Shown here: positions 11,562 to 63,299 of the stretch, in pieces
How the letters are laid out: each line of letters begins with the position of its first letter
How positions within the stretch are numbered: the first letter of the stretch is position 1
Assembly: GCF_010731895.1 (NCBI RefSeq)
Contig: NZ_AP022596.1
Span: forward strand, 6,200,001 to 6,264,000
Length of the DNA: 64,000 bases
Source of the DNA: Mycolicibacterium helvum
GTDB lineage: Bacteria > Actinomycetota > Actinomycetes > Mycobacteriales > Mycobacteriaceae
Direction of reading: 5' to 3'
The notes under the pieces: generated by a model
Seen by the model: only the letters and a program-made list of their open reading frames with translations
Databases searched by the model: none
Told to the model about the DNA's origin: nothing
Made by a program: the position numbers and the translations under genes

Positions 11562-11566
11562 CTACG

Positions 11567-12343: not shown

Positions 12344-12404
12344 CGATGCCGCAATCAGTTGGGCGATCAGTACGACGGCGACGACGGCCGTGAGCCGCCT
12401 GCGG

Positions 12405-13589: not shown

Positions 13590-13756
13590 GATTGCGCTTC
13601 CTTGTATCGCCGTCGACGTCGCTGCATCGAGTGCCTAAGGTCTCGAACAGGTTACGAAATGGCATCAGCGTTGTCCAACCAGGGACACAGTTCTCAAGAG
13701 ACTCTCAGCCTCACCGGCCACACCAGTCACAACCTGCCATCCAACCTATCAGGCCC

Positions 13757-48470: not shown

Positions 48471-49678
48471 GGGATCGCGGTGCCCGCGAGATGCCGGAGG
48501 ACGGCAGCGAGCCCCAGCGCACCACGCTCGCAGTCTTCATCGCGTGCGATCTCCCCCGGTGCGTGAGACACCCCGGTTGGGTTCCGCACGAAGATCATCG
48601 CGGCCGGCAAATACGCGGAAAGCACACCGGCGTCGTGGCCGGCACCGGTCGGGATGGCCGGCGCCCCGCCGAGCACGTCGGCTATCCGCCCGGTCAGCGT
48701 CTGGTCGAACGTGACCAGCGACGAGAACGACTCCTCATCGACATCGAGGAGGCAACCCTCGGCCTCTACACATTTCTGTATCAGCGCGACAGTGGAGTCC
48801 AGTTGAGCACGCACCTCCGCATCGGTGTGCGCGCGGATATCAAGCCATGCATCGACCCGCGAGGCGATCACGTTCGTTCCGTTCGGTGTGACGGCGATCC
48901 GGCCGACCGTACCGCGTGCCGTCGGGTGCTCCAGCGCGACGTCGCGAACGGCCAGTGCCGCCGCCGACGCCGCGACCACGGGATCGCGTCGCCCCGCCAT
49001 GGGAGTGCTACCCGCGTGGTTCCCCTCGCCTGAGATCGTCAGCCGCCATCTGCCGTGCGCCATGATCGCTGAGGCGACCGCGAGCGGTCGGCCGCGCTCT
49101 TCCAGATCGAGGCCCTGTTCGACATGCAGTTCGACGAACGCGTCCAGTAAGGCCAATCGGTCATGATCGGGACCCATCCGCGACACATCCATACCCGCCT
49201 GCCGCCACGCATCTTCGAGTGTGACCCCATCACCGTCGGCTCGGGCCAGGGCGGATTCCGGGGAGATTTCGCCGACGAGCAACCTAGAACCCAGGCACGG
49301 CATGCCGAAACGGGTGCCCTCTTCCTCGGTGAAGGCGCAGACCGCGATCGGACGTGCCGGAAGCCAACCTTGTGCCTTCAGGATTGCCACTGCCTCAAGC
49401 GAACTCGCTACACCGAGGGGACCGTCATACGCTCCCCCTCCAGGGACCGAGTCCAGGTGGCTTCCTGTTGCGATCGCACCGGGTCCCGGATCACCCCACC
49501 ATGCCCAGAGATTGCCGTTCCCGTCTAGCTCGACGGTCAGGTCAAGCTCTCGCGCCGAGCTGCAGAACCAGTCGCGAAGCGCCAGTTCGGCCGCTTCCAA
49601 TAGGTGTCGCGAATAGCCTTGGCGGATCGGATCGCGCCCGATCTCACTGATCTGCGCAAGCCTTTCAAGCACCGACAT
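48467..49678 (-). CDS. M20-family amidohydrolase (allantoate/N-carbamoyl amino acid hydrolase type), candidate N-formylglutamate hydrolase
   Basis: 403 aa, two-metal hydrolase of the AllC/hydantoinase-carbamoylase group. Ligand motifs: H74 and D76 in GSHLDSVP, D85 in GGAYDG, E119/E120 in FTEEEGTRF, H185 in ELHVEQG and the C-terminal GAGHDAG and SHAPGE. The family removes carbamoyl or formyl groups from N-substituted amino acids. Coupling to hutF, whose product is N-formylglutamate, and absence of hutG in the window suggest it performs the last histidine-degradation step. That assignment is inference. Confidence 0.82.
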   Translation of the reverse strand: MSVLERLAQISEIGRDPIRQGYSRHLLEAAELALRDWFCSSARELDLTVELDGNGNLWAWWGDPGPGAIATGSHLDSVPGGGAYDGPLGVASSLEAVAILKAQGWLPARPIAVCAFTEEEGTRFGMPCLGSRLLVGEISPESALARADGDGVTLEDAWRQAGMDVSRMGPDHDRLALLDAFVELHVEQGLDLEERGRPLAVASAIMAHGRWRLTISGEGNHAGSTPMAGRRDPVVAASAAALAVRDVALEHPTARGTVGRIAVTPNGTNVIASRVDAWLDIRAHTDAEVRAQLDSTVALIQKCVEAEGCLLDVDEESFSSLVTFDQTLTGRIADVLGGAPAIPTGAGHDAGVLSAYLPAAMIFVRNPTGVSHAPGEIARDEDCERGALGLAAVLRHLAGTAIP

Positions 49679-49828
49679 GGCTCGCTCCTCTCACATGGAT
49701 TCGCGCAGATCGTGTTTCAGCCAGATTGATGTCGACACAGTGGTTCGTGGCCAAATGTGTCGGAGTCAGGTCTGTCAAGGAGTCGTCTTCCTCACGGGTC
49801 TCGAAGTGGTGGTCAATGCGATGCGGCT

Positions 49829-50638
49829 CTACATGTCGTCTCCTCTACCGGCCACAGCACCCCGCAAGACCAAGCCGAAGAAGGCGGTCAGCTCACCGGC
49901 GACCGTCTCGGGCTGCTCCAGTGGGCCGGCGTGCGCTGCATTCGGGACGCATTGAACGGAACCCCGCCGTACGCCACGTGCAATCTGTACGGATCGCTGT
50001 TCGGGGACCAGTTGGTCGTGTTCTCCCCACAGCGCCAGAACGGGTGGCGCTACCTGCGCCAGCCTCGCCGTGGCGTCGTAGTCGGCGAGCGCCTCACAGG
50101 CCCGGGCATAGCTCTCGTCGTCGGTATATCCGAGTGCGAGAAGCATGCGGTTGACTCTGTCGGGGTGCAATTCCCGCGTCGATGGAGCGAACCAACGCTG
50201 CAACGACCCGGCTGCCAGAGAATCGGTGCCATTGGCTCGCACCGATGCCGCCCGCTCGGCCCACGCGACACGAGAGTCCACACTCGCTCCTGCCGAAACG
50301 ATCGCCGCGGCGGCGACCCGATCGGAGTACCTCAGCGCCAAGTCGAGCCCCACCGTGCCGCCGATCGAGACGCCCGCATAGAAGAATCTCGACACCCCGC
50401 GAGCATCGAGGTGCTCCATGATGGCGTCGGACAGGTCGCCGATCGTGAAAGCGTGCTCTGCCGAAGGCGATTGGCCGTGTCCGGGGAGTTCCCAGCACAC
50501 GACATGAAGCGACTGTGCCAGCAGGGGAACGACATCCGCCCATAGGGCAGCGGAGGTGCCCAGAGAGTGCCCGAGTACCAGAGTTGCGGCGTCGGCGGGG
50601 CCGACCGGATCGGTGAACGTGAGCGTGGGGGTGGGCAC
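49829..50638 (-). CDS. alpha/beta hydrolase (3-oxoadipate enol-lactonase-like)
   Basis: 269 aa. Oxyanion region VLGHSLGTS, nucleophile elbow G-V-S91-I-G-G, acid in LWGEHDQLVP and a His in NAAHAGPLEQPE form a complete Ser-Asp-His triad. It resembles PcaD-type enol-lactonases and small lactonases; the substrate is unknown. GTG start at 50638. It lies between the ABC importer genes and the M20/hutF pair on the same strand (gaps 62 and 150 bases), implying that its substrate or product joins the same pathway. The 150 bases on its 3' side hold no gene. Confidence 0.8.
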   Translation of the reverse strand: MPTPTLTFTDPVGPADAATLVLGHSLGTSAALWADVVPLLAQSLHVVCWELPGHGQSPSAEHAFTIGDLSDAIMEHLDARGVSRFFYAGVSIGGTVGLDLALRYSDRVAAAAIVSAGASVDSRVAWAERAASVRANGTDSLAAGSLQRWFAPSTRELHPDRVNRMLLALGYTDDESYARACEALADYDATARLAQVAPPVLALWGEHDQLVPEQRSVQIARGVRRGSVQCVPNAAHAGPLEQPETVAGELTAFFGLVLRGAVAGRGDDM

Positions 50639-50700
50639 AATCTTGTCCTGGGGTCTAGGTCTGTCGGTTCGGCGCCTCGCGCCTCGTTCGGGTTCTGGTG

Positions 50701-51468
50701 TCAGCCCACGTGGTTGAGGAAGAGTCGCGTCCGTTGGGAACTCGGTGAGTCGATGAGCTGCTCGGCCGGACCGATCTCGATCATCCGACCCTGATCCATG
50801 AAGGCGACGCGGTCGGCGACATCGCGCGCGAACCGCATCTCATGGGTGACCACGATCATCGTCATGCCGGCTTCTGCCACGCGGCGCATAACCGACAGCA
50901 CTTCGCCGACCAGTTCGGGGTCCAGCGCGCTTGTCGGCTCGTCGAACAACATCAGCTTGGGCTCCATCGCCAATGCGCGGGCGATGGCCACTCGCTGCTG
51001 TTGGCCGCCGGAAAGATGACGCGGGTACGAATTTTGCAGGTGCTCGAGCCCCACGTCCGCCAGGGCGGCCCTCGCTCGATCGATCGCATCGCTCTTGGAG
51101 AGACGGCGAACCTTGGTGAGCCCAATTGTGACGTTCTCGAGCGCAGTCAGGTGAAGAAAGAGATTGAAGTGCTGGAACACCATGCCGATGTGCTGGCGGT
51201 ATCTCGCAATCTCCGACTCGCTCGCCTCGTGCAATTCACCATTCTTGACGACGGCACCGGCAAACTGATCGTCCACTTGGATGTAGCCGCCGTCGATCCG
51301 TTCGAGATAGTTCACACAGCGAAGCAGAGTGCTCTTGCCAGACCCGGACGGCCCGATGACGCAGAGCACTTCACCCGGCGTGACATCGAGATCGATCCCC
51401 TTGAGGACGTCCACCTCGCCGAAGCGCTTGACGACGTGTCTGATTGTGACAAGGGGTTGCTGCTTCAT
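50701..51468 (-). CDS. polar amino acid ABC transporter, ATP-binding protein
   Basis: 255 aa, HisP/GlnQ-type. Walker [10 protein letters not shown] (about 38-46), Q-loop VFQHFNLF, signature [16 protein letters not shown], Walker [15 protein letters not shown] and the H-loop VTHEM are intact. Start ATG at 51468 overlaps the permease stop by four bases. With the permease and binding protein it forms an importer for a polar amino acid; histidine or urocanate is a reasonable guess from the gene context. Confidence 0.92.
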
Positions 51469-52349
51469 TGGGACGCCTTCGCGAGACGAGGGGTGACGGG
51501 TTTCTTCTGAGGGCCTCCGGACAGCGAGTACTTCTTCTCAAGGAAATGCTGACCGACGCTCGCGAGCGTGACGAGCACCAGATACCAGAAGCTGGCCACC
51601 ATCAGCAGCGGTATGGTCTGGAAGTTGGAGCCGTAGATCTGCTGAGCACGCGTGAGCAAGTCACCGCCGCCGATGACGGCCACGAGCGCGCTGGCCTTCA
51701 ACAGACTGATGAACTGATTGCCTGTGGGCGGAATGATCACCCTGATGGCCTGGGGGATCACGATGGTCCGCATGGCGAGGCCTCGCTTCATCCCCACGCT
51801 CTGGGCCGCCTCCCGCTGGCCGCCGGGAACCGACAGGAAACCCGCCCTGATGATTTCCACCATGAACGCGCCTTCATGCAGCGACAGCCCGATGATTGCT
51901 GCGCTGAAGCCGGTGATGAGTGTGTTGGTGTCCCAGCTGAAAGCGCCGATGCCCACCCGGGGGATGAACAGCGCCGCGTTGAAGCAGATAAGGAGGAGAA
52001 TGAGCAGCGGAAGTCCGCGGAAGAAGCCCACATACGCTTTCACGAGGGTGCGAAATACGGGGTTGGGGGACTCCCCCAGTAACGCCAACAGACATCCGAT
52101 GAGAACCGCAAAAACTTGGGACACGAGCGATAGCTCGATCGTCACCTGCACCCCTTGCAGGATGGGGTCGGAAAACACGTACTGCGCGAAGACGGACCAT
52201 TTCATGTTCTCGTTGGTCGCAAACCCATAGCCAACCCCGCCTGCCAGCAGGATCGCCACGAGTCCGCTGATCCAGTAGCTCGTACGTCTGCGTGGCACGG
52301 GCCTCGCGTGGGGGTCCCGCACCAAGCCGTCCGCGATCAGATCAGTCAT
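51465..52349 (-). CDS. polar amino acid ABC transporter, permease
   Basis: 294 aa from the ATG at 52349, which has a strong AAAGGAAGGTG site; the frame is open to 52544 but that part would overlap the binding-protein gene. A single N-terminal membrane segment is followed by the HisM/GlnP-type domain with the EAA loop ([30 protein letters not shown]) and about five membrane helices. Only one permease gene is present, so it should function as a homodimer. Confidence 0.9.
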
Positions 52350-52413
52350 TGGTGCACCTTCCTTTCGTTGTCTCCCGAGTATGTGGTCGGGGGGCGACCC
52401 CACGAGGCGGTGC

Positions 52414-52438
52414 AGACGCCGCTTGACCTTCGGCGTCT
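52414..52438 (-). promoter_or_regulatory. intercistronic hairpin between binding-protein and permease genes
   Basis: AGACGCCG and CGGCGTCT form an 8-bp perfect stem around a 9-base loop in the 95-base gap. On the transcribed strand this lies just after the binding-protein stop. Such hairpins typically protect the upstream message or partly stop transcription, giving more binding protein than membrane subunits; that role is inferred. Confidence 0.5.
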
Positions 52439-52444
52439 TCCCGC

Positions 52445-53392
52445 TCAGAACCCACAGGCTCCGCACGGCTCGGGCACCTTGAGCGGTCGGGTCGTCGCCA
52501 GGTTGATGCCGGGCTCGTCCAGGGCGATGTCGGCAAGACCCCACTTGTCCATAACTTTGCCGTAGGTGCCGTCTTTGATGATTGCCGTGAGCGCGCCGAG
52601 GAACGCCTTGGCGGTGTCGTCAGCGTCGGGTGTGACGACAATGCCAACGTATGTGCGCGCCAGCAGCGGGTTGGGGACGACCTTGAACGCGTTGTTGGAC
52701 GTCTTCACTTGCCAGGCGCCCGTTGCGGTGTCGGTGACGGCGAAGTCGATCTGGCCGGATTGCAGAGCGGTGTTTTGATCGCCTGCGGACGGGAAGTTGG
52801 TCACCTGCACCGGCGGGCGGCCTGCCCCCTGGCAGTTCTTGTTGAAAAGGTCTACGTCACTGACGAATTCGGTGCCGGTCTGCACGCCCGCGTTCAGACC
52901 ACATAGAGTCAACGGGTTCTCAGTAATGCCCTTGTCGCTCTTCGAACTAACGAGAAGGCTCTTCGTCGCGTACGCGTAATCGACGAACTTGACCGTCTTT
53001 TCACGCTCCAGGTTGTCGGTGATGCACTCCATGGCCGCGGTGAAGCGCCCACTTTGAACTCCCGGCAGCAGGCCGTCGAACGTGATCGACTTCTGCTCGA
53101 TCTTGACACCGAGTCGCGGGGCCATTGCCATCAGGAGATCGTGGTTGAAGCCGTCGATTTGGCCGGCGTCGTTGGTGAAGTCGCACGGTGGGTACGAAGG
53201 ATCCGTCGCCACCGTGATGACGCCCGAGTCGCGAACCTGTTGAGGAAGCAGGGCATGCAGTTCGGGCATGACTTGAGCATTTGGCGTTTCGGTCCCGCTG
53301 GGCGACGCGGTCTTGGACGTACAGCCGGCGCCGAATAGTGCCGTGACGGCGATTGATGCGAGCGTGATTGCAAGCGCACTGGACTTGGGCAT
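52445..53392 (-). CDS. polar amino acid ABC transporter, substrate-binding lipoprotein
   Basis: 315 aa, family 3 solute-binding protein. Signal peptide with lipobox-like FGAGC (lipidated C24), then the two-lobed domain: GVITVATDPSYPPCDF, GFNHDLLMAMAPRLG, GVQSGRFTAAMECITDN and the hinge region. C164 and C187 probably form the disulphide common in this family. The C-terminal CGAC-GF end with two more cysteines (C310, C313) is unusual. ATG follows AGGAGCC. The ligand is likely a polar amino acid or its derivative. Confidence 0.9.
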   Translation of the reverse strand: MPKSSALAITLASIAVTALFGAGCTSKTASPSGTETPNAQVMPELHALLPQQVRDSGVITVATDPSYPPCDFTNDAGQIDGFNHDLLMAMAPRLGVKIEQKSITFDGLLPGVQSGRFTAAMECITDNLEREKTVKFVDYAYATKSLLVSSKSDKGITENPLTLCGLNAGVQTGTEFVSDVDLFNKNCQGAGRPPVQVTNFPSAGDQNTALQSGQIDFAVTDTATGAWQVKTSNNAFKVVPNPLLARTYVGIVVTPDADDTAKAFLGALTAIIKDGTYGKVMDKWGLADIALDEPGINLATTRPLKVPEPCGACGF

Positions 53393-53424
53393 CTCTGGCT
53401 CCTAATGTGACGCGGAACATCCGA

Positions 53425-53445
53425 AATGAACAAAACTATTCACTG
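53425..53445 (-). promoter_or_regulatory. candidate operator, copy A (upstream of importer operon)
   Basis: Carries AATG-N-A-N-AAAA-YY-ATTCA, the same pattern as copy B near hutH (15 of 21 positions identical by eye). It ends 33 bases upstream of the binding-protein start, where a repressor would overlap the transcription start or leader. A second shared block, ATGCAAGG followed by GGCAACC, begins at 53469, 44 bases from the first. Confidence 0.5.
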
Positions 53446-53594
53446 TGACGGAAAACGTATCAGCCGTTATGCAAGGGGGCAACCCCCAAATTCGCACGCC
53501 ATCCAGCTGTTTCATGGCCGTAACACAGGGAAACCGCCCGCCCACCCCGTCCCACCCATCGATGGGCGAGAGACGTGCCCAGCAGCGGACAGCA

Positions 53595-53625
53595 GAGGGG
53601 GTGGGCACAACGTGCCCACCCCCTC
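53595..53625. terminator. perfect 14-bp inverted repeat downstream of hutH
   Basis: GAGGGGGTGGGCAC, then AAC, then GTGCCCACCCCCTC: 14 perfect pairs and a three-base loop, located 37 bases after the hutH stop on the transcribed strand. No T tract follows, but stems of this strength act as terminators in mycobacteria. It separates hutH from the importer operon, so that operon needs its own promoter in 53393-53594. No gene is visible in this 269-base gap. Confidence 0.66.
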
Positions 53626-53661
53626 GGTCGCCGCCACATTCGTCACGGCGCGAACCGCTCG

Positions 53662-55191
53662 CTAGCCCACGGTGTCGAGTGACACCCCGGCAATCTTCAC
53701 GAAAGCCCCGTCGAGAACTTCTGCGGCAATGGACTCCATCTCCCCTGCCATGATCCGGTCATCCTTGAGGAAGGCGGCCTTGGACCGGACGAGCTCGTAT
53801 GTGGGACGGTTGGCCGTCGCGGCGTGCCCACCGTTACGAAGGTCCAGTCCCTGTGCGGCGCATAGCAACTCAATGGCAACGACGTACGCCGCATTACGCA
53901 CCATCGCCCCTAGGCGAACGGACGCATGAGTCGCCATGCTGACGTGGTCTTCCTGACCGGCGGAAGTGGGGATGCTGTCCACGCTGTTGGGCGTCGCCTT
54001 GGCACGGTTCTCTGCGACGAGCGCGGCGCTGGTGACCTGGGCCATGATGAATCCTGAGTTGAGCCCCGCGTTCTCGACCAGGAAGGGCGCGAGCCCGCTC
54101 ATAGAAGCATCCATCAGCATTGCCTGGCGACGCTCCGAGATGGAGCCGACCTCACAGATCGCCAAAGCGATGATGTCCGCCGCGTACGCGATGGGCTGCC
54201 CGTGGAAGTTCCCACCCGAAAGCACAACACCGTCATCAGGGAACATCAGCGGATTGTCGGAGACGGCATTGACCTCCTGCTCGATCGTGCCCGCCGCGAA
54301 CGTGAGAAGGTCCAGCGCTGCGCCCATCACCTGCGGCTGGCAGCGCAGGCAGTAGGGGTCCTGCAGGCGGCGTCCCTCGAACTCGAGATCGAGCACCGCG
54401 CTGTCTTCGACCAGGCGACGCAGGGAGGCGGCGACGCGGATCTGACCGGCATGTCCGCGGATCTGCTGGATGCGGTCATCGAGCACCACCTGCCGCCCCG
54501 CCGTGGCTTCCAGGGTGAGCGCGCCCGCGGCAAGCCCGGCATTGAACACGGCCTCGGCCCCGATCAACCCACGCAGAGCGATGGCGGTAGACGCCTGAAC
54601 GCCATTGAGGAGAGCCACGGCTTCTTTGGGGCCGAGCACCACCGGGGTGATCCCAGCCTTGGCGAGTCCCGCGACGGCGTCGTAGGTGACCCCATCGATC
54701 CGCACGCGACCCTCACCCATCATCGCTCCGGCCAGGTGTGCCAGGGGTGCGAGGTCTCCGGATGCCCCCACTGAGCCCTGGCTCGGGACGACCGGCAGCA
54801 CATCGGCGTTGAGAAGAGCCACGAGCATCTCGGCGATCTCCACGCGGACGCCAGAGTGGCCCCTGGCCAACCCGATCAACTTGATGACGAGGATCGCGCG
54901 CACGATCTCGTCCGAAAGTGGGTCACCCACCCCGACCATGTGCGAAAGCACCGACCGCCGCTGCAATTCCGCGAGATCCCCTGGCGAGATGCGTCTATCC
55001 GCGAGCTTGCCGAAACCGGTGTTGACGCCGTAGACGACATCTCCTCGGCTGATCGCATCGAGGATGACCTGGTGTCCTCGCCGCAGGTTCTCCACCGCCT
55101 GATCAGTGAGCTCGACTTGGACGGGTCCTCGGAATACGGGCCGAAGTGCGTCGAGGCTCAAACGCTCGCCACTTACTGTGATGGCGGTCAT
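53662..55191 (-). CDS. hutH: histidine ammonia-lyase
   Basis: 509 aa. Deaminates L-histidine to trans-urocanate. The MIO prosthetic group forms from A143-S144-G145 in SVGASGDLAPL. Other catalytic residues fall at the positions known from Pseudomonas HAL: Y54, H84, N196, Q277, Y280 and R283 (LQDPYCLRCQPQ), F329 and E414 (GQEDHVSM). This full set argues for true histidase rather than a related ergothionase or aromatic lyase. The ATG follows GAGGAG. It stands apart from hutF and hutI, and a divergent promoter region is shared with the MDR gene. Confidence 0.94.
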   Translation of the reverse strand: MTAITVSGERLSLDALRPVFRGPVQVELTDQAVENLRRGHQVILDAISRGDVVYGVNTGFGKLADRRISPGDLAELQRRSVLSHMVGVGDPLSDEIVRAILVIKLIGLARGHSGVRVEIAEMLVALLNADVLPVVPSQGSVGASGDLAPLAHLAGAMMGEGRVRIDGVTYDAVAGLAKAGITPVVLGPKEAVALLNGVQASTAIALRGLIGAEAVFNAGLAAGALTLEATAGRQVVLDDRIQQIRGHAGQIRVAASLRRLVEDSAVLDLEFEGRRLQDPYCLRCQPQVMGAALDLLTFAAGTIEQEVNAVSDNPLMFPDDGVVLSGGNFHGQPIAYAADIIALAICEVGSISERRQAMLMDASMSGLAPFLVENAGLNSGFIMAQVTSAALVAENRAKATPNSVDSIPTSAGQEDHVSMATHASVRLGAMVRNAAYVVAIELLCAAQGLDLRNGGHAATANRPTYELVRSKAAFLKDDRIMAGEMESIAAEVLDGAFVKIAGVSLDTVG

Positions 55192-55266
55192 GGTGATCTA
55201 TCTCCTCGTACTAATAACTCCCGTGTGATGGTGCCGAAGCGGGCAAGACAGCTGGTGGCCCGCAGC

Positions 55267-55286
55267 GAATGCAGAAAATCATTCAG
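55267..55286. promoter_or_regulatory. candidate operator, copy B (between hutH and the MDR reductase gene)
   Basis: GAATG-N8-CATTC inverted repeat (GAATGCAG AAAA TCATTCAG). It lies 76 bases upstream of hutH and 61 bases upstream of the divergent MDR gene. The block ATGCAAGG...GGCAACC begins 44 bases from the AATG, as in copy A, and overlaps a perfect palindrome TTGCATGCAA (55308-55317). Confidence 0.52.
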
Positions 55287-55346
55287 TCGACATGCAGACG
55301 GTATCTTTTGCATGCAAGGCAGGCAACCTCCGCGTATGGTTCAGCC

Positions 55347-56399
55347 GTGACTCCCACGACGGCCGTCGTCCTCGCCTCACGCCCGAACGGTGAACCCGTT
55401 CACGAGAACTTCCGACTTGAAGTGCGCGACGTCGGCCCCGTGCGGGAGGGCCAGGCCCTGCTGCGGACGATCTACCTCTCCCTTGACCCGTATATGCGCG
55501 GGCGGATGAATGCCGGCCGGTCATATGCAACCCCGGTCGAGATCGGCGAGGTCATGGAAGGAGCAACGGTCTGCGAGGTCCTCGAATCGGCGTCGCCCCT
55601 GGTCACTGCCGGAGATATCGTGTTGGCGCATACCGGATGGCAGACCCATACGGTCGAGGATGCCCGGCTGCTGCGCCGGATCGATCCAAGCAAAGCGCCC
55701 ATCTCGACCGCGTTGGGAATTCTTGGCATGCCGGCCTTCGCCGCGTACGTCGGTCTCACCGAAATCGGCCGTCCACGACCGGGCGAGACCCTTGTGGTCG
55801 CGGCCGCCGCCGGTCCGGTCGGCTCCATGGTGGGGCAGATCGCGCGGTTGCGGGGCGCACGCACCGTCGGGATCGCGGGCGGGCCGAAAAAGGTCACCTG
55901 GCTCAAGGAATTGGGTTTCGATGCTGCGATCGACCACCGCTCAGCCACCTTCGCCGACGACCTGAGCGCGGCGGTCCCCGATGGCGTCGACATCTACTTC
56001 GAAAATGTCGGCGGTGCGGTGTGGGACGCCGTCTTCGAGCATCTGAACGACTTCGCCCGAATCCCGGTCTGCGGGTTGATCGCGCAGTACAACCAGACCG
56101 GCCCGTCGGCCGGGCCCGACCGACTGCCCCTGTTGATGAAGGCCGTCAACACCAAGCGCCTACTTGTCCAGGGTTTCACCCAAAGAGACTTCATCACAAC
56201 GCATTACGACCAGTTCCAGCGCGACGTTTCGGGCTGGCTGGCCGACGGGAAACTCAGATACCGGGAGGACTTCGTCGACGGCATCGAGAATGCGCCCGAC
56301 GCGTTCTTCGGGCTCTTGCAGGGTAAGAACTTCGGCAAACTCATCGTTCGGGTTTCCGAGGACCCGACGAGCGCCGCGCCGGGCGTGCAACGCGAGTGA
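55347..56399 (+). CDS. NADP-dependent oxidoreductase, zinc-free MDR (CurA / leukotriene B4 dehydrogenase-like)
   Basis: 350 aa. Family start TTAVVLASRPNGEPVHENF, then YLSLDPYMRGRM, the nucleotide-binding VAAAAGPVGSMVGQIARLRG and GVDIYFENVGGAVWDAV. These enzymes usually reduce the C=C bond of alpha,beta-unsaturated ketones, or related enones, with NADPH. GTG at 55347 is chosen from family alignment in memory; the ATG at 55269 would place the operator-like motif inside the gene. Within the island it could act on an unsaturated intermediate such as one derived from urocanate, or on a ketone feeding the monooxygenase. This is speculation. Confidence 0.82.
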   Translation: MTPTTAVVLASRPNGEPVHENFRLEVRDVGPVREGQALLRTIYLSLDPYMRGRMNAGRSYATPVEIGEVMEGATVCEVLESASPLVTAGDIVLAHTGWQTHTVEDARLLRRIDPSKAPISTALGILGMPAFAAYVGLTEIGRPRPGETLVVAAAAGPVGSMVGQIARLRGARTVGIAGGPKKVTWLKELGFDAAIDHRSATFADDLSAAVPDGVDIYFENVGGAVWDAVFEHLNDFARIPVCGLIAQYNQTGPSAGPDRLPLLMKAVNTKRLLVQGFTQRDFITTHYDQFQRDVSGWLADGKLRYREDFVDGIENAPDAFFGLLQGKNFGKLIVRVSEDPTSAAPGVQRE

Positions 56400-56414
56400 G
56401 TCGAACCCGTTGCT

Positions 56415-57272
56415 TCAGTCCTCGAACACATCCAGATCCGCAGCGTGCGTTTCGAAACGCTCCAGCCCGTCCTGGGAACTCCCGGGACTGGAATCGGCCA
56501 TCGCATGAAGCAGCGCGCTCGACATGATGTTGATGGCGGCCGACGTGTCGAACAGCAGGCCGCTGGCGAGCCTGACCGTGATGAGCTCGTCGGCTTCATG
56601 GCCTACCGTCGCAAACGACTCGTCGCTGAGGACCACCGCCTTGAGCCCGATCTGCCGCGCATAGCGCACGAGCTCGCATGACTCACGCGGATAGCGGGGA
56701 AGAATAAAGAACAGACACCAGGTCGCGCCCCGGCTTTGTGCCCGGGCGATGCTCTCTTTCGCCTGGGTGTCGCCTCGGCAGATCACCGAGATTCCCGAAT
56801 GGACCTTGGCCCCGAGGTAGGCGAAGTGCTCGGCGAACGATCGGGATACCCGAAGACCGACGACGGGCAGCAGGTTCGACGACATGATGGCCGCGCCGAC
56901 CCGGGCAACCTGTTCGGCGAGGCCGGCCGAACTACCCAGCCATTGCAGGTTGGCGATCTCGGCGTTGATTGCATCGTCGAGCGGGCTTGGATCCTTGGTC
57001 TCCGGCGTATGCGCAGCCATCTCCAACCGCGCCCACTTCTGAAGTGCGCGTTTAAAATCGGAGAATCGTGTATAGCCAAGCGCTGCAGCGAATCTCGAGA
57101 CCGACGGCTGACTGACGCCAACCTGGCGTGCGATGCTCTCGCTCGTCAGGAATGCCGCCGCGTCGCGATGGTCAACGATGTAGCGCGCGATCCGTCGCTG
57201 CGCCGGAGAGAGCCGGGCTGTTCTCAGTCGGTCATAGATGTCATCGGAGAAGACGGGCGCAGTCGTCGTCAT
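56415..57272 (-). CDS. RpiR-family transcriptional regulator (HTH + SIS)
   Basis: 285 aa. N-terminal helix-turn-helix of the RpiR type: LSPAQRRIARYIVDHRDAAA, then SIARQVGVSQPSVSRFAAALGYTRFSDFKRAL, followed by a SIS domain (about 125-260) with VVGLRVSRSFAEHFAYLGAKV. SIS domains bind phosphosugars or other small polar effectors. Start overlaps the upstream hydrolase stop by four bases. It is the only regulator gene in the island and so the best candidate to bind the shared GAATG/CATTC motif. Confidence 0.88.
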   Translation of the reverse strand: MTTTAPVFSDDIYDRLRTARLSPAQRRIARYIVDHRDAAAFLTSESIARQVGVSQPSVSRFAAALGYTRFSDFKRALQKWARLEMAAHTPETKDPSPLDDAINAEIANLQWLGSSAGLAEQVARVGAAIMSSNLLPVVGLRVSRSFAEHFAYLGAKVHSGISVICRGDTQAKESIARAQSRGATWCLFFILPRYPRESCELVRYARQIGLKAVVLSDESFATVGHEADELITVRLASGLLFDTSAAINIMSSALLHAMADSSPGSSQDGLERFETHAADLDVFED

Positions 57273-58168
57273 CGCGGCCCTCCCACGCAGCTGTCCTCAA
57301 GCCCCGCGTGGCCAGGGTCGAGAACCGGTTCGTCGAACGTACCCAGGATCTCCAGAAGCAACGCTGCGGTGGCTGCGGGATCGCTGATGTTCGGGGAGTG
57401 CCGTGCCTCGATGTCGTAGACGCAACAGTGCGGCGCGTGCTCGGCGATTTTCCGTGCCCAGTCGCGTTCCACGAGGTTGTCCTTCACACCGCTGACAAGT
57501 GCAAGACGAGCCTTCACATTCCGGAGGTTATCCGGATACTCGTCCGCGGGCTTTGCATCCGCGTTGAACGGTGTGGCGAGTCCGGCCGCGGCGACCGCTC
57601 GGTAGTGGCCGGGGCTGGTCGCGTCGCGCATCCGCATGTCGACGTGGCTGTCGATACCATCGAAATCGCCAGTGAGCATGCGAACAATTCGCAGCATATC
57701 GGCGCGTGAACCGTCGAAATGCGAGAGAGCGACCAACGATTCCTTCGTGCGGTAGGGGCCCCCGGTTCCCGCGATCGACACCGCAGATCGCACGCGCCAC
57801 GCACACCACGGCAGGGTCGAGGCGCGTAGCGCCATGGCGCCGCCGAACGAATTTCCGACGAAGTGCGCGGCCGTGGCGCCCAACCCGACCGCGTCGAGCA
57901 AGTCGGCGACCTGTCGAAGCCGGAACTCGTAGGGCGCGACGTCAAGCTGGACCATCTTGCTGGACTGTCCGTAGCCGTACAGGTCGGGGGCGATCACCCG
58001 GTAGCGGGTGGCCAAGATCGGAATGATCTCGCGCCAGCTGGCTTCAGCCGACCCGCCCCACGCCCCGTCATGCAGGAGCACGACCGGTTGAGCGGAGTGG
58101 TCCCCCGCAGACAGGTAGCTCGTCTCCAGCCCACCGATCGTGATCTGGTCCCGCTGGATTGTTGCCAT
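57269..58168 (-). CDS. alpha/beta hydrolase (meta-cleavage-product hydrolase-like)
   Basis: 299 aa. VVLLHDGAWGGSAEASWREI resembles the oxyanion loop of MhpC/BphD-type C-C hydrolases, the nucleophile elbow is G-N-S107-F-G-G, and an Asp (GVKDNLV) and a His (ARHSPNISDP) complete the triad. Alternatively an esterase. It lies 52 bases downstream of the monooxygenase gene and is coupled to the RpiR gene, so hydrolysis of the ester made by the monooxygenase is a natural guess. Confidence 0.82.
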   Translation of the reverse strand: MATIQRDQITIGGLETSYLSAGDHSAQPVVLLHDGAWGGSAEASWREIIPILATRYRVIAPDLYGYGQSSKMVQLDVAPYEFRLRQVADLLDAVGLGATAAHFVGNSFGGAMALRASTLPWCAWRVRSAVSIAGTGGPYRTKESLVALSHFDGSRADMLRIVRMLTGDFDGIDSHVDMRMRDATSPGHYRAVAAAGLATPFNADAKPADEYPDNLRNVKARLALVSGVKDNLVERDWARKIAEHAPHCCVYDIEARHSPNISDPAATAALLLEILGTFDEPVLDPGHAGLEDSCVGGPR

Positions 58169-58220
58169 CCCGTATTCTCCCGTCTCAGAAGCGTGCCCGC
58201 GTACGGCCGATCGTGTCCGC

Positions 58221-60218
58221 CTACGCGAGGAACTCGTAATCGGCTTCGATCACCGATTCGGTGATGTCCCAGTACTCGACGTTCGTATATGGCCAGATCT
58301 GGGAGACCCGGCCATGCGTGTTCTGGTACCACGTTTGCACGTAGGACTGGCCCCACGCCATTTTGCGGTTGCCCTGGTCCACCCACGTGACGAAGCGGTC
58401 GAGCGCCTCGGGGCGGACATCGATCGCGGAGATATGCCGGCTCAGGATGTGGTGAATCAGCGACAGTGAATACTCCACCGCGCGTTCGAGCATGAAGTGC
58501 AGGCTTCCCGCGACGACACCACCGACGTTGGGGCCGTAGACAAGAAAGAAGTTGGGAAATCCGGGGACGATGATCCCGTTGTAAGCGCGCGCGTCACCCG
58601 CCCAGAACTCGTGGATCTCACGACCACCGCGACCGATGACCTCGATTTCGTCCAAATAATCGGAGGGCTTGAAGCCAGTCGCGTACACCACGATATCGAC
58701 CTCGTGCTCCCGCCCCGACGCGTCGACGATCCCTTTCTCGGTGAACCGTTCGATTCCCGCGGTCACCAGCGTCGTCTTGTCTGCCCGCAACGCGGCAGCC
58801 CACACCTCATTGTCGCGAAGCATCCGCTTTGCACCCGGCGGGTAGTTCGGGATCGCGTGCTCGAAAAGGTCTGGGCGACTATCTAATTGCGCTTTGACGC
58901 GGGCGCTGAGGTACTCGCGCAGCTCCTGGTTCTTCGGCGAGATGCTCAACGGAGCTCCCGGCCAGTTCTCCTGTGCCGTCACCGTGTGCGCCCTGCCGGG
59001 GATGCCGGTGAGGATGACCCACAGCCGATACCACTGTGCGTAATGGGGAACCTTGAGCCGCAGCCAGGTGAAAGCATCCGTGACAGGGTGGTGGTAGTTG
59101 GGTGCAGGCAGCATCCACGGGGCGCTGCGCTGGAATACCACGAGAGATTCCACCTCGTCGACAATCGCCGGCACCACCTGATACGCACTCGCACCGGTGC
59201 CTATGACCGCGACTCGCTTGCCCGCAAGGTCAACATCGTGGTTCCACTCCTGGGTGTGCATTGCCACACCGCGGTAGAGCTCCGACCCGGCGATGTCCGG
59301 GATGTTCGGCCGATCGAGCTGTCCCACCGCGCTAATGACAGCGCAGAACCGTCGCACTTGCTCAGAACCGTCGCCACCACGAGTAGTGGCCTCCCACTGG
59401 CGAGCATCCTCATCCCACCGCAGGCGTACGAGCCGCGTCGAGAATTCGATCTCATTCGTGATCCCGGCCCGCTCGGCGACATCGCGAAGATAGTCGAGGA
59501 TCTCGCCGCCCCGAGCGAATTGGTTGGGCCAGTCACCTCGCTGGGCGAATGAGTACGAGTAGCCGAAGGTCGGCGTGTCGAGGCGAACACCAGGATAGGT
59601 GTTCTTCGCCCACGTCCCACCGACGGTCGCGGCGGCCTCGATGAGGACATAAGGGACACCGGCCTGCCGATACCGGTGGGCGGCCGCTATGCCGCTGACG
59701 CCCGCGCCAACGATGAGCGTCGAGAACTCGCGCCCGTTGGCTACCTCATCGAAATCCCATCCGGGCCGTCCGCCTTTGCGTTCGGCGATGTCGAGTTCGT
59801 GCGTGAGCATGTTGCCCCACTCGCGGCGGCCACCCGAGAGATAGCCGAGGATCTCGCCCACGGTCGCATCCGAGAGCATGTCGACGGAGTTGATTTTCGC
59901 TTCGCGTATCTTCTGCAACCCTGTCAATGCCAGGGCAGCCGCCTTCTTCTGCTGATCCGGTGTCATGCCACCGTGTGGCTGCGGCTCGGTATCCATCGGC
60001 GTCAGCGGTGGGACCAGATCAGCCGAAAGAAACGAGGTGTCGCGCAGTGCGGCAGCGATCGCGGCCAGCAAGACCGGCAGCTCCGCATTGGCCACGATCT
60101 GCTCGAGGAAGGTGTCGTCCTCGACGATGACCTCGGACCGCGACTCCCAGTACAAGTCGTCGAACTGGTCAGCTCCCCCACCCTGGGACTCGCGACTACC
60201 TGCCATGTCGAGTTGCAT
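58221..60218 (-). CDS. flavin-binding Baeyer-Villiger monooxygenase, 4-hydroxyacetophenone monooxygenase-like
   Basis: 665 aa with an N-terminal extension of about 170 residues (ELPVLLAAIAAALRD segment) as in HAPMO. The FAD motif is LIVGAGVSGIAAA, the NADPH motif AVIGTGASAYQV, and between them the type I BVMO fingerprint reads Y-R-G-V-A-M-H-T-Q-E-W, with Tyr in place of the usual Phe. The TGF-type ATGFKPSDY motif near the C-terminus is present. Such enzymes turn ketones into esters or lactones with O2 and NADPH; the substrate is unknown. First gene of an operon with a hydrolase and the RpiR regulator. Confidence 0.86.
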   Translation of the reverse strand: MQLDMAGSRESQGGGADQFDDLYWESRSEVIVEDDTFLEQIVANAELPVLLAAIAAALRDTSFLSADLVPPLTPMDTEPQPHGGMTPDQQKKAAALALTGLQKIREAKINSVDMLSDATVGEILGYLSGGRREWGNMLTHELDIAERKGGRPGWDFDEVANGREFSTLIVGAGVSGIAAAHRYRQAGVPYVLIEAAATVGGTWAKNTYPGVRLDTPTFGYSYSFAQRGDWPNQFARGGEILDYLRDVAERAGITNEIEFSTRLVRLRWDEDARQWEATTRGGDGSEQVRRFCAVISAVGQLDRPNIPDIAGSELYRGVAMHTQEWNHDVDLAGKRVAVIGTGASAYQVVPAIVDEVESLVVFQRSAPWMLPAPNYHHPVTDAFTWLRLKVPHYAQWYRLWVILTGIPGRAHTVTAQENWPGAPLSISPKNQELREYLSARVKAQLDSRPDLFEHAIPNYPPGAKRMLRDNEVWAAALRADKTTLVTAGIERFTEKGIVDASGREHEVDIVVYATGFKPSDYLDEIEVIGRGGREIHEFWAGDARAYNGIIVPGFPNFFLVYGPNVGGVVAGSLHFMLERAVEYSLSLIHHILSRHISAIDVRPEALDRFVTWVDQGNRKMAWGQSYVQTWYQNTHGRVSQIWPYTNVEYWDITESVIEADYEFLA

Positions 60219-60249
60219 CCTCTCCGTGGGTCACCTGGCCAACTCTTTG

Positions 60250-60255
60250 TATAAT
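60250..60255 (+). promoter_or_regulatory. -10-like TATAAT upstream of the SnoaL gene
   Basis: A perfect TATAAT in an AT-rich stretch 81 bases upstream of the SnoaL-like gene, so transcription would begin near 60262 and the candidate operator at 60283 would lie just inside the leader. No convincing -35 box is present at 16-18 bases. On the other strand the same bases read ATTATA and could serve the monooxygenase gene. Confidence 0.33.
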
Positions 60256-60282
60256 CCTATTCCAGTCTGACAGATATGCATA

Positions 60283-60297
60283 GAATGCAGTCATTCA
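60283..60297. promoter_or_regulatory. candidate operator, copy C (between monooxygenase and SnoaL genes)
   Basis: GAATG-CAGT-CATTC(A): the same half-sites as copy B with four bases between them instead of eight, so copy C equals copy B minus AAAA. It is followed by a GTCG-CATG stretch that also follows copy B. It lies 64 bases from the monooxygenase start and 38 from the SnoaL start. Confidence 0.48.
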
Positions 60298-60335
60298 ACG
60301 TCGCCATGTGCCAGGTCAACAGTGAGGAAGAATCA

Positions 60336-60737
60336 ATGACTGTCTCAGCTGACAACGTGAAGGACTGGCTGGAGAGCTTCGGTCGAGTCTGGCGCGAACG
60401 CGACGCAAAGGGTGCCGCAGCGATCTTCACCGAAGACGCCAGCTATCGAAACAGCCCCTTCCTTGACGAAGCCTTCGTCGGCCATGACGCCATCGAGGGA
60501 TTCTGGGCGGCGGCCGTCGCCGACGTTGCCGACGTGGACTTCCGTTATGGGGTGCCGGTGATCGAGGGCGATCGCGTGGGCGTTGAGTGGTGGACGAACC
60601 TGAAATCCGGCGGGGAGGACTACACACTGGCCGGCAATTTCCTTCTCACTTTCGCGGGTGAACGGGTATCGGATCTCCGTGAGTCGTTCGTGAAACAACA
60701 AGGCGCACACAGCCCTCACCCGGGCTGGGGGCTGTGA
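60336..60737 (+). CDS. SnoaL-like / nuclear transport factor 2-fold protein
   Basis: 133 aa, opening TVSADNVKDWLESFGRVWRE and continuing FTEDASYRNSPFLDEAFVGH, then the beta-sheet RVGVEWWTNLKSGGEDYTLA: the cone-shaped NTF2/SnoaL fold used by hydratases, isomerases and accessory proteins. The ATG at 60336 follows GAGGAAG. Its stop overlaps the GTG of the flavoprotein gene by four bases. No catalytic residue can be assigned; a small isomerase or hydratase role in the pathway is possible. Confidence 0.78.
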   Translation: MTVSADNVKDWLESFGRVWRERDAKGAAAIFTEDASYRNSPFLDEAFVGHDAIEGFWAAAVADVADVDFRYGVPVIEGDRVGVEWWTNLKSGGEDYTLAGNFLLTFAGERVSDLRESFVKQQGAHSPHPGWGL

Positions 60738-62062
60738 CCAGCTACCCAGGCCAAACCATGGACGCCGGGCGAGCGAACCGAACTGAAGTACTCGTCGTCG
60801 GCGCGGGCGTGATCGGCGCGAGTGCCGCACTGGCGCTGGCGAAGTCGGGTCACGATGTGCTTGTCATCGACCGCAACAGCGGCGTCGGCGACGGATCGAC
60901 GGGCGCGTCAGCCGGGATCATCCGGGTGCACGCGAGCGATACACAGAGTTCGGCGCTCGCCGACGACGCGTTGACGGTGTGGAAAAACTGGCGGGAATTC
61001 CTCGGTTCTGACGAATCCGAGAACCTCGCCCGATTCGTGCAGTGCGGTTCGCTCATCCTCGATGCTGGCAACGGATTCACCGACCAGGCGGCTGCAGCGA
61101 TGACTGGCGCGGGCGTCGCGTTCGACAAGTGGACCCTCGACGAGATGAGCGGTCACTTTCCGTACTTCGACTTCCGCCGATTCGGTCCGCCCAAGTCGGT
61201 CAATGACGAGGCGTTCTGGGACGAACCCACCGACTATCTCAGCGGCGGCATCTACACGCCGCAGTCCGGCTACGTGGGAGATCCGACGCTCGCGGCCGTC
61301 AACCTGATGCAGGCTGCGCAAAGAGCGGGAGCGCGTCTACGGCTGTCGGCCACCATCGCCGGCGTCGATATCGACGGTGGCCGCGCGGTGGGTGTCACAC
61401 TCGCAGATGGCACCGTCTTGCGGGCCGAGGCGGTGCTCGTCGTCGCCGGGCCGAACACCGACGGCCTGATCCGAGGCATCGGCGCAACCGCCGACTTCCG
61501 GGTGCGCACGCAGCGCATCCGGGAGGAACTCATCCACATCCCGGCACCGCCTGACCTGAACCTTGCACTGCACGGGGTGCACCTCGTGGACGGCGATCTC
61601 AACATCAACTTCCGCCCGGAACGCGACGACGCCATCCTGGTGGGGAGCAATGGCGATCGCGCGGATGAGCGGACACTCATCGATGATCCCGATGACTTCA
61701 ATCAGCTTGTGACGGCTGCCGTTTGGGAACGGACGACCTTGCGACTCGCCAGGCGAATCCCAGATCTGGGCATACCGCGAACTCGTATGGGGGTCGTCGG
61801 GCTCTACGACGCCGCCGAGGACTGGCTTCCGATCTACGACCGCACATGCTACGACGGCCTTTTCGTCGCGATGGCCACATCCGGAACGCAGTTCAAAACC
61901 GCGCCGATCGTCGGCGAGCTACTCCGGCACGTCATCGAGACCGAGCTGAACGGACGCGATCACACGGCCGAACCCTTCCACAGTCCGGTCGGCAATCGCA
62001 CGTACGCGACGGCACAGTTTTCCCGATTACGAACTCCGAGGGAAGACCAGTCACGAGGATGA
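60734..62062 (+). CDS. FAD-dependent oxidoreductase, DAO (sarcosine oxidase/glycine oxidase-like) family
   Basis: 442 aa. The N-terminal Rossmann motif VLVVGAGVIGASAALALAKSG is followed by IDRNSGVGDGSTGASAGIIR, where DAO enzymes bind FAD, and the C-terminal GLYDAAEDWLPIYD and FVAMATSGTQFKTAPIVGELL complete the flavin site. These enzymes oxidise secondary or primary amines or 2-hydroxy acids. No His or Cys for covalent flavin is evident. GTG start at 60734, translationally coupled to the SnoaL gene, and 16 bases before hutI, so its product probably connects to histidine degradation. Confidence 0.82.
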   Translation: MTSYPGQTMDAGRANRTEVLVVGAGVIGASAALALAKSGHDVLVIDRNSGVGDGSTGASAGIIRVHASDTQSSALADDALTVWKNWREFLGSDESENLARFVQCGSLILDAGNGFTDQAAAAMTGAGVAFDKWTLDEMSGHFPYFDFRRFGPPKSVNDEAFWDEPTDYLSGGIYTPQSGYVGDPTLAAVNLMQAAQRAGARLRLSATIAGVDIDGGRAVGVTLADGTVLRAEAVLVVAGPNTDGLIRGIGATADFRVRTQRIREELIHIPAPPDLNLALHGVHLVDGDLNINFRPERDDAILVGSNGDRADERTLIDDPDDFNQLVTAAVWERTTLRLARRIPDLGIPRTRMGVVGLYDAAEDWLPIYDRTCYDGLFVAMATSGTQFKTAPIVGELLRHVIETELNGRDHTAEPFHSPVGNRTYATAQFSRLRTPREDQSRG

Positions 62063-62078
62063 TCGGAGACGTGAACGT

Positions 62079-63299
62079 ATGACAGGGACACAGGAATCCG
62101 TTCTCCTCGACGGCATCTCAGAGCTGACGACGAACGACGAGGCGAACGGCGGAAGGGTCACCGACGCGGCGCTGGTGATCGAGGGCGATCGAATCGCCTG
62201 GGTCGGCGCGGCTGGTACCGCACCGGCTGCGGACCGAAAGATCGCCGTCGACGGCCGCGCGGTCCTCCCTGGCTGGGTCGATTCCCACACGCACATGGTG
62301 TTCGCGGGAGACCGAACTGCGGAGTTCGAGGCGCGGATGGCTGGTCAGCCGTACTCAGCCGGCGGCATCAATGTCACGGTTCAAGCCACCCGCGCTGCGA
62401 GCGACAGCGATCTCGAAGCGAACATCGAACGACTCGTCGCCGAAGCACGTCGGGGCGGGACAACGACGATCGAGACCAAGACCGGCTACGGGCTCACCGT
62501 GGTCGACGAGGTGCGGGCCGCACACGTGGCCCGTCGATATGCCGATGCCGTGACCTTCCTGGGTGCCCACGTCGTACCCGAGGACCAAGACCCCGTCGAC
62601 TACCTCGAACTCGTCACCGGCGCCATGCTTGACGCAGTGGCACCTCTCGTTTCAGCGGTCGACGCATTCTGCGAGACCGGCGCCTTTGACGAATCGGCGA
62701 CGCGACGGGTTCTCGAAACCGCACGAGCGCGCGGCCTGGCACGCCGACTCCACGGCAACCAACTTGGGCATGGTCCGGGCGTACAACTCGCGGTGGAGTA
62801 CGGGGCCCTCAGCGTCGACCACGTCGGATTCCTCGCCGACGACGATATCGATGCACTCGCCTCCTCGTGGGTGGAGGGAATGCGGGGCACCGTTGCGACC
62901 GTGCTTCCGGCCTGCGACTTGTCGACGAAGATGCCGCTCGCACCAGCCCGCCGGCTACTCGATGCCGGAGCGGTCGTCGCGATCGCATCGAACTGCAATC
63001 CAGGTACGTCATTCACCACCTCGATGGCGTTCTGCGTTGCCACCGCGGTTCTCCAGATGGGGATGTCTGTCAGGGAGGCGGTCCGAGCGGCAACGCTGGG
63101 CGGTGCGATCGCACTCGGAATGCACACGGACGGATGGCTCGATCCTCGAGGTGCGCCACAGCTGGCGGTCGGCGTCTTACGCGCCGGCGCGCGGGCAGAC
63201 CTCCAAATACTTGATGCGCCTTCGGTCGCGCACCTCGCATACCGCCCGGCGGTGCCACTCACACACGCGGTCTGGAAAGCCGGAATCCGCGAAATCTAG
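62079..63299 (+). CDS. hutI: imidazolonepropionase
   Basis: 406 aa. Hydrolyses 4-imidazolone-5-propanoate to N-formimino-L-glutamate. Metal ligands H70/H72 in VDSHTHMVFAG, H225 in RLHGNQLGHGPG and H248 in SVDHVG are present, along with TKTGYGL. At the position of the last metal ligand, usually Asp in a TD-x-NPG motif, this protein has Asn305 in SNCNPGTS. The C-terminal ADLQILDAPSVAHLAYRPAV is typical of actinobacterial HutI. ATG start at 62079, in an operon with the SnoaL and DAO genes. Confidence 0.9.
   Translation: MTGTQESVLLDGISELTTNDEANGGRVTDAALVIEGDRIAWVGAAGTAPAADRKIAVDGRAVLPGWVDSHTHMVFAGDRTAEFEARMAGQPYSAGGINVTVQATRAASDSDLEANIERLVAEARRGGTTTIETKTGYGLTVVDEVRAAHVARRYADAVTFLGAHVVPEDQDPVDYLELVTGAMLDAVAPLVSAVDAFCETGAFDESATRRVLETARARGLARRLHGNQLGHGPGVQLAVEYGALSVDHVGFLADDDIDALASSWVEGMRGTVATVLPACDLSTKMPLAPARRLLDAGAVVAIASNCNPGTSFTTSMAFCVATAVLQMGMSVREAVRAATLGGAIALGMHTDGWLDPRGAPQLAVGVLRAGARADLQILDAPSVAHLAYRPAVPLTHAVWKAGIREI

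Follow-up and report, generated by a model that had tools for sequence, protein, structure and literature searches.

Bacterial histidine utilization (hut) genes are controlled in proteobacteria by HutC, a repressor of the GntR family that as one local regulator couples the transporter to the hut enzymes (PMC5343134, in its accessible part), and in Corynebacterium by HutR, an IclR-family protein whose gene lies within an actinobacterial hut cluster that in C. resistens carries hutU (PMC3350403, in its accessible part). The MurR/RpiR regulators of solved structure, NanR, RccR, and MurR, combine an HTH_6 domain with a SIS fold, recognize short near-palindromic operators and bind sugar phosphates or 2-keto-3-deoxy-6-phosphogluconate (KDPG); thus, according to the accessible parts of the reports, SpNanR binds the 18-bp near palindrome TCTGAAAGTACTTTTAGA (PMC12713135) and RccR the half-sites TGTAGT/ACTACA (PMC5489143). 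Here, we describe a 16-bp palindrome that recurs in the promoter gaps of an island of hut and oxygenase genes in Mycolicibacterium helvum, located in a stretch of 64,000 nucleotides (contig NZ_AP022596.1, positions 6,200,001 to 6,264,000; hereafter the window, with positions counted from its first letter). The comparison of sequences makes it very likely that this palindrome is the operator of a HutR-like RpiR-family protein encoded by the island itself, which would repress the whole island and respond to a histidine-derived inducer.

The island protein would resemble HutC in that one local regulator couples the transporter to the hut enzymes, and it resembles HutR in that its gene lies within an actinobacterial hut cluster, but it belongs to the family of neither: it is an RpiR and not an IclR protein, its N-terminal HTH_6 domain (PF01418) scored above the family cut-off, no domain besides HTH_6 was found by Pfam, and it did not qualify as a GntR member. 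A SIS domain was not reported by Pfam at 1e-3; the predicted model (predicted local distance difference test, pLDDT, 83.9; predicted template-modelling score, pTM, 0.63) fitted the RpiR SIS domain 3sho with a TMt of 0.83 and NanR 4ivn, compared over the whole chain, with a TM of about 0.5. The half-site TGNANA with a spacer of 4 bp differs from the NanR and RccR sites, and while these relatives bind sugar phosphates or KDPG, the clade of the island protein sits with histidine catabolism. In the literature searched, which included the accessible parts of PMC5343134 and PMC1978522 and left most subscription journals outside, no RpiR-type hut regulator was found. What is new here is a predicted local regulon of the RpiR type that would serve histidine use and is unusual in its gene content, which lacks urocanase.

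Comparison of the gaps across related islands resolves the shared motif into the palindrome TGNANA-N4-YATNCA, with the ideal form TGAATA-N4-TATTCA. The window holds four copies in three gaps:

53427..53442, no strand assigned: predicted operator A, TGAACAAAACTATTCA, between the importer operon and hutH; conserved in 6/6 islands; rank 2 in the window
55270..55285, no strand assigned: predicted operator B, TGCAGAAAATCATTCA, in the divergent hutH/MDR gap; conserved in 5/5 islands with this gap fetched; rank 1
60248..60263, no strand assigned: predicted operator C', TGTATAATCCTATTCC, in the divergent FMO/SnoaL gap; conserved in 6/6 islands; rank 4, 14.9 bits
60282..60297, no strand assigned: site C, AGAATGCAGTCATTCA, found in this genome only; rank 3, 16.1 bits

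A sequence-only reading of this DNA had listed three related stretches, A as AATGAACAAAACTATTCA (53425-53442), B as AATGCAGAAAATCATTCA (55268-55285), and C as GAATGCAGTCATTCA (60283-60297). A and B are indeed conserved forms of one palindrome, and the pattern read out of them matches exactly these two places of the 64-kb window when both strands are considered. The third site of that list fits the palindrome but is not conserved; the conserved copy of the FMO/SnoaL gap is C', 34 bp away, which had been overlooked, so that the list of three was incomplete. Moreover, C had been described as B lacking AAAA, but it is a separate copy in another register of the 6-4-6 palindrome. Its counterpart in the near twin island of another genome of the genus (G009) is GAATGCCGTCAACT, in which the right half is lost. 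As judged by eye, site C overlaps a predicted SnoaL -10 box (TAGAAT, 60281-60286). In three other islands (Pseudonocardia kujensis, G437, and G788) a weak second palindrome of 5-7 bits lies over the SnoaL -10 box at 29 bp from C'; its equivalent in the window is 60277-60292, from which the strong site C is shifted by 5 bp.

Searching with the RpiR protein gave six islands for comparison: the window itself, taken from a genome of 6.4 Mb in a single contig, and those of G009 (same genus; RpiR 91% identical to the window protein), P. kujensis (77%), an actinomycete metagenome-assembled genome (MAG, G437; 70%), and G731 and G788 (both 78%), which belong to another family of the same order. The P. 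kujensis and MAG islands emerged when named genomes were scanned, at least 558 matches being found and the best 80 kept. The gene set is identical across all six, for the MAG as far as fetched, since its stretch stops within hutH and leaves the MDR gene and the hutH promoter outside; the gene order is rearranged in the MAG, G731, and G788. The sequence-only reading had proposed conservation upstream of orthologous genes as the test of its idea, and the outcome is clear: the motif is present in the importer promoter of 6/6 islands, in the hutH/MDR gap of 5/5 and in the FMO/SnoaL gap of 6/6. Furthermore, wherever rpiR has an upstream gap of its own (P. kujensis, the MAG, G731, and G788), this gap carries an extra copy (4/4, weak in G788); the window and G009 lack such a gap because rpiR abuts the preceding gene. 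The island is rare. A close RpiR protein was detected in 2/396 genomes of the genus, 2/397 of the order and 1/394 of the class, the window genome being counted each time; the draw of 397 order genomes gave one new island (1e-60) and 160 genomes of the genus of that island one more, while the 394 genomes of the class draw gave no new island at an E-value of 1e-80. Seven further of the 396 same-genus genomes contain only an RpiR protein of 34-39% identity at 1e-30. In the MAG island (L053, about 10846-13668) an unrelated stretch lies between rpiR and hutF, which from the impression of its letters may hold a cytochrome b561-like membrane protein and electron-transfer flavoprotein subunits.

The strength of the motif was assessed with a symmetric matrix. 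Its training set comprised 15 sites from the four foreign islands, the window and its near twin G009 being left out. This matrix ranks B (22.8 bits), A (22.4 bits), C (16.1 bits), and C' (14.9 bits) first in the window, followed by a fifth position of 7.7 bits. Thus, the window contains four scores of at least 14.8 bits, every one inside the three gaps, and none of the 63,387 window positions outside them reached 8 bits. With only the four foreign importer sites as training set, these four again came out on top, now ordered A, B, C, C'. When each scanned island together with any near twin was removed from training, 21 of the 22 sites of the six islands scored higher than all other positions of their own fetched island. 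The matrix was scanned on the window and on the fetched loci; the genome-wide scan used consensus patterns only.

The position of the operators relative to the predicted promoters suggests how they act. For A and B the promoters, predicted by consensus match only, are:

53454..53482, reverse strand: predicted importer promoter, -35 TTGCCC (53477-53482), 17 nt, -10 TACGTT (53454-53459)
55298..55326, reverse strand: predicted hutH promoter, -35 TTGCCT (55321-55326), 17 nt, -10 TACCGT (55298-55303)

The layout TTGCNN-N17/18-TACNNT, then 11-12 nt, then the operator is found in 11/11 importer and hutH promoters with A or B sites (11 nt for A and 12 nt for B in the window). Transcription starts about 7 nt past a -10 box, and the A and B operators would then begin near +5. 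The spacer between the -35 and -10 boxes of both promoters carries a conserved TGCAT or a near form of it, possibly the site of another factor. An RpiR dimer seated on the A or B operator would block RNA polymerase just after initiation, and from this place just past the predicted start RpiR is very probably a repressor. A compound derived from histidine might act as inducer and relieve the repression; urocanate or a later intermediate is our guess.

With four copies in three promoter gaps, every presumed transcription unit of the island would be covered, operons being assigned from strand and spacing. The A unit would comprise the importer, the hydrolase, M20, and hutF; the hydrolase and M20 genes follow the importer on the same strand after gaps of 62 and 150 bp, which contain no further operator (best scores -15.5 and 2.4 bits), and the importer promoter could drive these genes and hutF as well. 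The B unit would consist of hutH and the divergent MDR reductase gene, and C' and C would serve FMO-ABH-rpiR together with the divergent SnoaL-DAO-hutI. The sequence-only reading had placed rpiR outside the shared control. The spacing within FMO-ABH-rpiR, a 4-base overlap and a 52-bp gap, makes rpiR instead the third gene of the presumed FMO operon that starts at gap C, and the regulator would thereby belong to its own regulon and be autoregulated through this gap. The proposal that one regulon joins the hut and the oxygenase genes gains support from the conserved operators in six islands.

RpiR might also act as an activator, or as repressor and activator both, instead of being a simple repressor. 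Such a role would find room in gap C of this genome with its two sites 34 bp apart, and there is precedent in the family, as far as the accessible parts of the reports tell: activation has been proposed for SpNanR, involving a degenerate half-site located 23 bp downstream of the recognition sequence (PMC12713135), and KDPG has opposite effects on RccR binding at two classes of site (PMC5489143). We regard this as rather unlikely, given that throughout the A and B promoters the predicted -10 box is followed after 11-12 nt by the operator, a position that favours blocking over activation.

That the regulator of the palindrome is very probably the island RpiR is indicated by loci beyond the six islands. 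Related systems of known type are the canonical actinobacterial clusters rpiR-hutU-M20-hutF-hutI with hutH (L035-L037, L045-L050, and L059), in which an RpiR homologue of 35-42% identity to the island protein is encoded immediately before hutU. Like the island, they have M20, hutF, and hutI (10/10 loci) and a hutH match of 30-43% identity (10/10); unlike the island, they carry hutU after rpiR and have no match to MDR, FMO, SnoaL, or DAO at 1e-8. A matrix built from all 22 sites was applied to 15 further loci with RpiR proteins of 34-44% identity (for L139 measured on a 72-residue piece), and in 9/15 the top match lies in the promoter of rpiR, of a hutH-like gene or of an importer; in the canonical clusters L035-L037 it lies directly upstream of rpiR-hutU. 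A second set of 77 Streptomyces-type loci (76 from Streptomyces and one from Streptosporangium, 1.52 Mb) yielded 100 strong matrix matches, 99 of them within 300 bp 3' of rpiR and distributed over 70/77 loci, although at 1e-8 these loci matched none of the hut genes used as queries. No strong match occurred in the 79 kb of short flanking sequence around another 22 RpiR-family matches (L009-L030). These observations, together with the copies in the rpiR gaps, lend weight to the choice of RpiR as regulator, which in the sequence-only reading had been made from gene content.

The Streptomyces rpiR loci had been considered as a negative control and were dropped from this role: at first the upstream side only was viewed, and the matches sit 3' of rpiR. 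In the six Streptomyces-type loci whose letters were inspected, the palindrome, found 3' of rpiR in loci such as L054 and L063, stands just before a promoter-like stretch TTGC...TATATA. Of five reading frames analysed next to the Streptomyces-type site, one encodes an acyl-CoA oxidase (L054) and one a TetR regulator (L122), and three gave no Pfam match.

The palindrome could instead belong to an unlinked regulator, e.g., a nitrogen or global one, with rpiR merely residing in the island, and the conserved TGCAT element in the A and B spacers could be read as a trace of another factor. We consider this quite improbable, since the motif precedes rpiR in all four islands with a separate rpiR gap, stands just upstream of rpiR-hutU in L035-L037 and accompanies rpiR in 70/77 Streptomyces-type loci without any hut match. 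Assignment of the palindrome to the RpiR protein of the island is thus preferred.

For the background, 60 random windows from a first-order Markov model contained 0.30 matches of at least 14.8 bits per 64 kb, their best scores averaging 13.2 bits and never exceeding 17.6 bits. In real DNA, away from rpiR in the Streptomyces-type loci, such matches occurred once per 1.50 Mb, and at this rate the three gaps with their 541 bp would be expected to hold 0.0004, against four observed. A chance likeness of A, B, and C among AT-rich intergenic DNA is therefore most improbable, for although the random windows allow a lone site of the strength of C or C' in 64 kb, A and B exceed 22 bits, all four copies fall within the three promoter gaps, and the equivalent places of the other islands examined again hold A, B, and C', which refutes it for these three, while a chance origin of site C alone is possible.

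Several observations weigh against the assignment of the motif to RpiR or limit its reach. Site C is not conserved; C' comes only as a thin fourth, 10.6 against 9.0 bits, with the matrix from the four importer sites; and the site before rpiR in G788 is weak with the leave-out matrix (6.8 bits, rank 6). The background across the chromosome, which the sequence-only reading had named as its second test, was assessed with loose consensus patterns, and these do match elsewhere: across the whole genome the loose consensus has 21 matches, 3 in the island and 18 outside (control 3), and the consensus with up to two mismatches occurs at 20 places, 2 in the island and 18 outside (control 10). The sites were gathered by eye before the matrix test, the window and G009 being nevertheless held out. 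Six of the 15 further loci, all canonical clusters, fit poorly: the top match of L045-L048 (16.0-19.5 bits) falls within the rpiR reading frame, L049 has just 12.4 bits upstream of rpiR, and the best score of L050, 11.4 bits, lies in hutU. Finally, the Streptomyces-type site sits 3' of rpiR, it often enters the count twice in overlapping registers, and the loci, drawn from the top 80 of at least 558 matches, are related to one another.

The genes of the island, which spans 47172-63299, were named with Pfam and NCBIfam:

47172..48470, reverse strand: hutF, formimidoylglutamate deiminase (NF006681 516.4, cut-off 362)
48467..49678, reverse strand: M20 amidohydrolase of the allantoate-amidohydrolase type (NF006770 539.6, cut-off 372)
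49829..50638, reverse strand: alpha/beta hydrolase, 3-oxoadipate enol-lactonase-like (below the family cut-off)
50701..51468, reverse strand: ATP-binding cassette (ABC) transporter ATPase (Pfam/NCBIfam)
51465..52544, reverse strand: ABC permease of the His/Glu/Gln/Arg type (Pfam/NCBIfam)
52445..53392, reverse strand: solute-binding protein of the amino-acid importer, SBP_bac_3 (Pfam)
53662..55191, reverse strand: hutH, histidine ammonia-lyase (TIGR01225 605.4, cut-off 539.15)
55347..56399, forward strand: MDR-type NADPH double-bond reductase, curcumin-reductase-like (NF058644 505.8, cut-off 440; 5zxu)
56415..57272, reverse strand: rpiR, MurR/RpiR-family regulator (PF01418, HTH_6, 46.4 bits, cut-off 28.3; SIS by fold)
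57269..58168, reverse strand: alpha/beta hydrolase ABH (Pfam)
58221..60218, reverse strand: FMO, Baeyer-Villiger-type flavin monooxygenase with a long N-terminal extension (Pfam; steroid and phenylacetone monooxygenases 4aos and 1w4x)
60336..60737, forward strand: SnoaL-like protein (Pfam)
60734..62062, forward strand: DAO-family oxidase dependent on flavin adenine dinucleotide (Pfam)
62079..63299, forward strand: hutI, imidazolonepropionase (TIGR01224 311.2, cut-off 298.15)

The listed permease frame overlaps the binding-protein gene by 100 bp, and its true start is probably later because the transporter domain starts at residue 127-147. The M20 protein occupies the place of HutG beside a HutF that scores above its cut-off. 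HutH retains ASGD and QEDH when aligned to the histidine lyase of known structure 1gkm, which makes a histidine-like substrate likely. Type I Baeyer-Villiger monooxygenases share the fingerprint FXGXXXHXXXW(P/D), from which the FMO stretch YRGVAMHTQEWN at residue 315 departs by Y for F and N for P/D.

Urocanase is missing from this set. No match to PF01175 was found in the whole genomes of the window, G009, and P. kujensis, and a HutU query gave nothing within any of the six island stretches. In the remaining three genomes urocanase is encoded outside the island: on another contig of the MAG G437, in G731, where the hutI-DAO-SnoaL/FMO-ABH half of the island is neighboured, some 6 kb past its hutI, by an additional hutH with hutU (L136, 3792-6997 and 13081-19180), and in G788, which has a separate rpiR-hutU-M20-hutF-hutI-hutH cluster. 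The three urocanase-free genomes have a single hutH and a single hutI, the island copies, while each of the three urocanase-bearing genomes has an additional hutH, and all of these but G731 give an additional hutI match as well (all at an E-value of 1e-40). A strict rule that the island occurs where urocanase is missing was rejected, for it is true of 3/6 genomes only. In the three urocanase-free genomes, HutH and HutI must work without any known HutU.

The co-regulated MDR reductase and FMO may replace the urocanase step. We suggest tentatively, as a possibility with the odds somewhat against it, that the regulon encodes one oxygen-dependent, urocanase-free histidine pathway in which HutH, MDR, FMO, HutI, HutF, and M20 act in turn. 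HutH would form urocanate, which the MDR reductase would saturate to imidazole propionate; FMO would oxygenate the imidazole ring to give imidazolone propionate, and HutI, HutF, and the M20 hydrolase would finish its degradation. Reductase and monooxygenase together would thus yield the same product as the hydratase. A chemical precedent is the flavin-dependent imidazoleacetate monooxygenase, which makes an imidazolone one carbon shorter. The absence of hutU from 6/6 islands, together with the single hutH and hutI where urocanase is lacking, supports such a pathway. Against it stands that the HutU of the other three genomes could serve the island HutH, and that G731 has hutH and hutU paired some 6 kb away from the island, whose hutI is the sole copy in that genome. 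The main alternative, a histidine derivative as the substrate, would fit above all the three genomes with both systems. ABH, SnoaL, and DAO have no place in the urocanase-free scheme and stay unexplained by it. Neither a bypass of urocanase nor a paper on the imidazoleacetate monooxygenase was found in the literature searched, most subscription journals being outside of it.

The consequences of these findings concern both the regulator family and histidine catabolism. The hut regulators known from the accessible literature are HutC of the GntR and HutR of the IclR family, and an RpiR type with a defined operator would add a further family. If the assignment is true, the RpiR family is not confined to sugars. 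That the unexpected reductase and oxygenase genes belong to one physiological programme with hutH and hutI, in genomes of which three lack urocanase, is best supported by the operator they have in common. With operators and candidate enzymes named, a urocanase-free histidine pathway would become directly testable.

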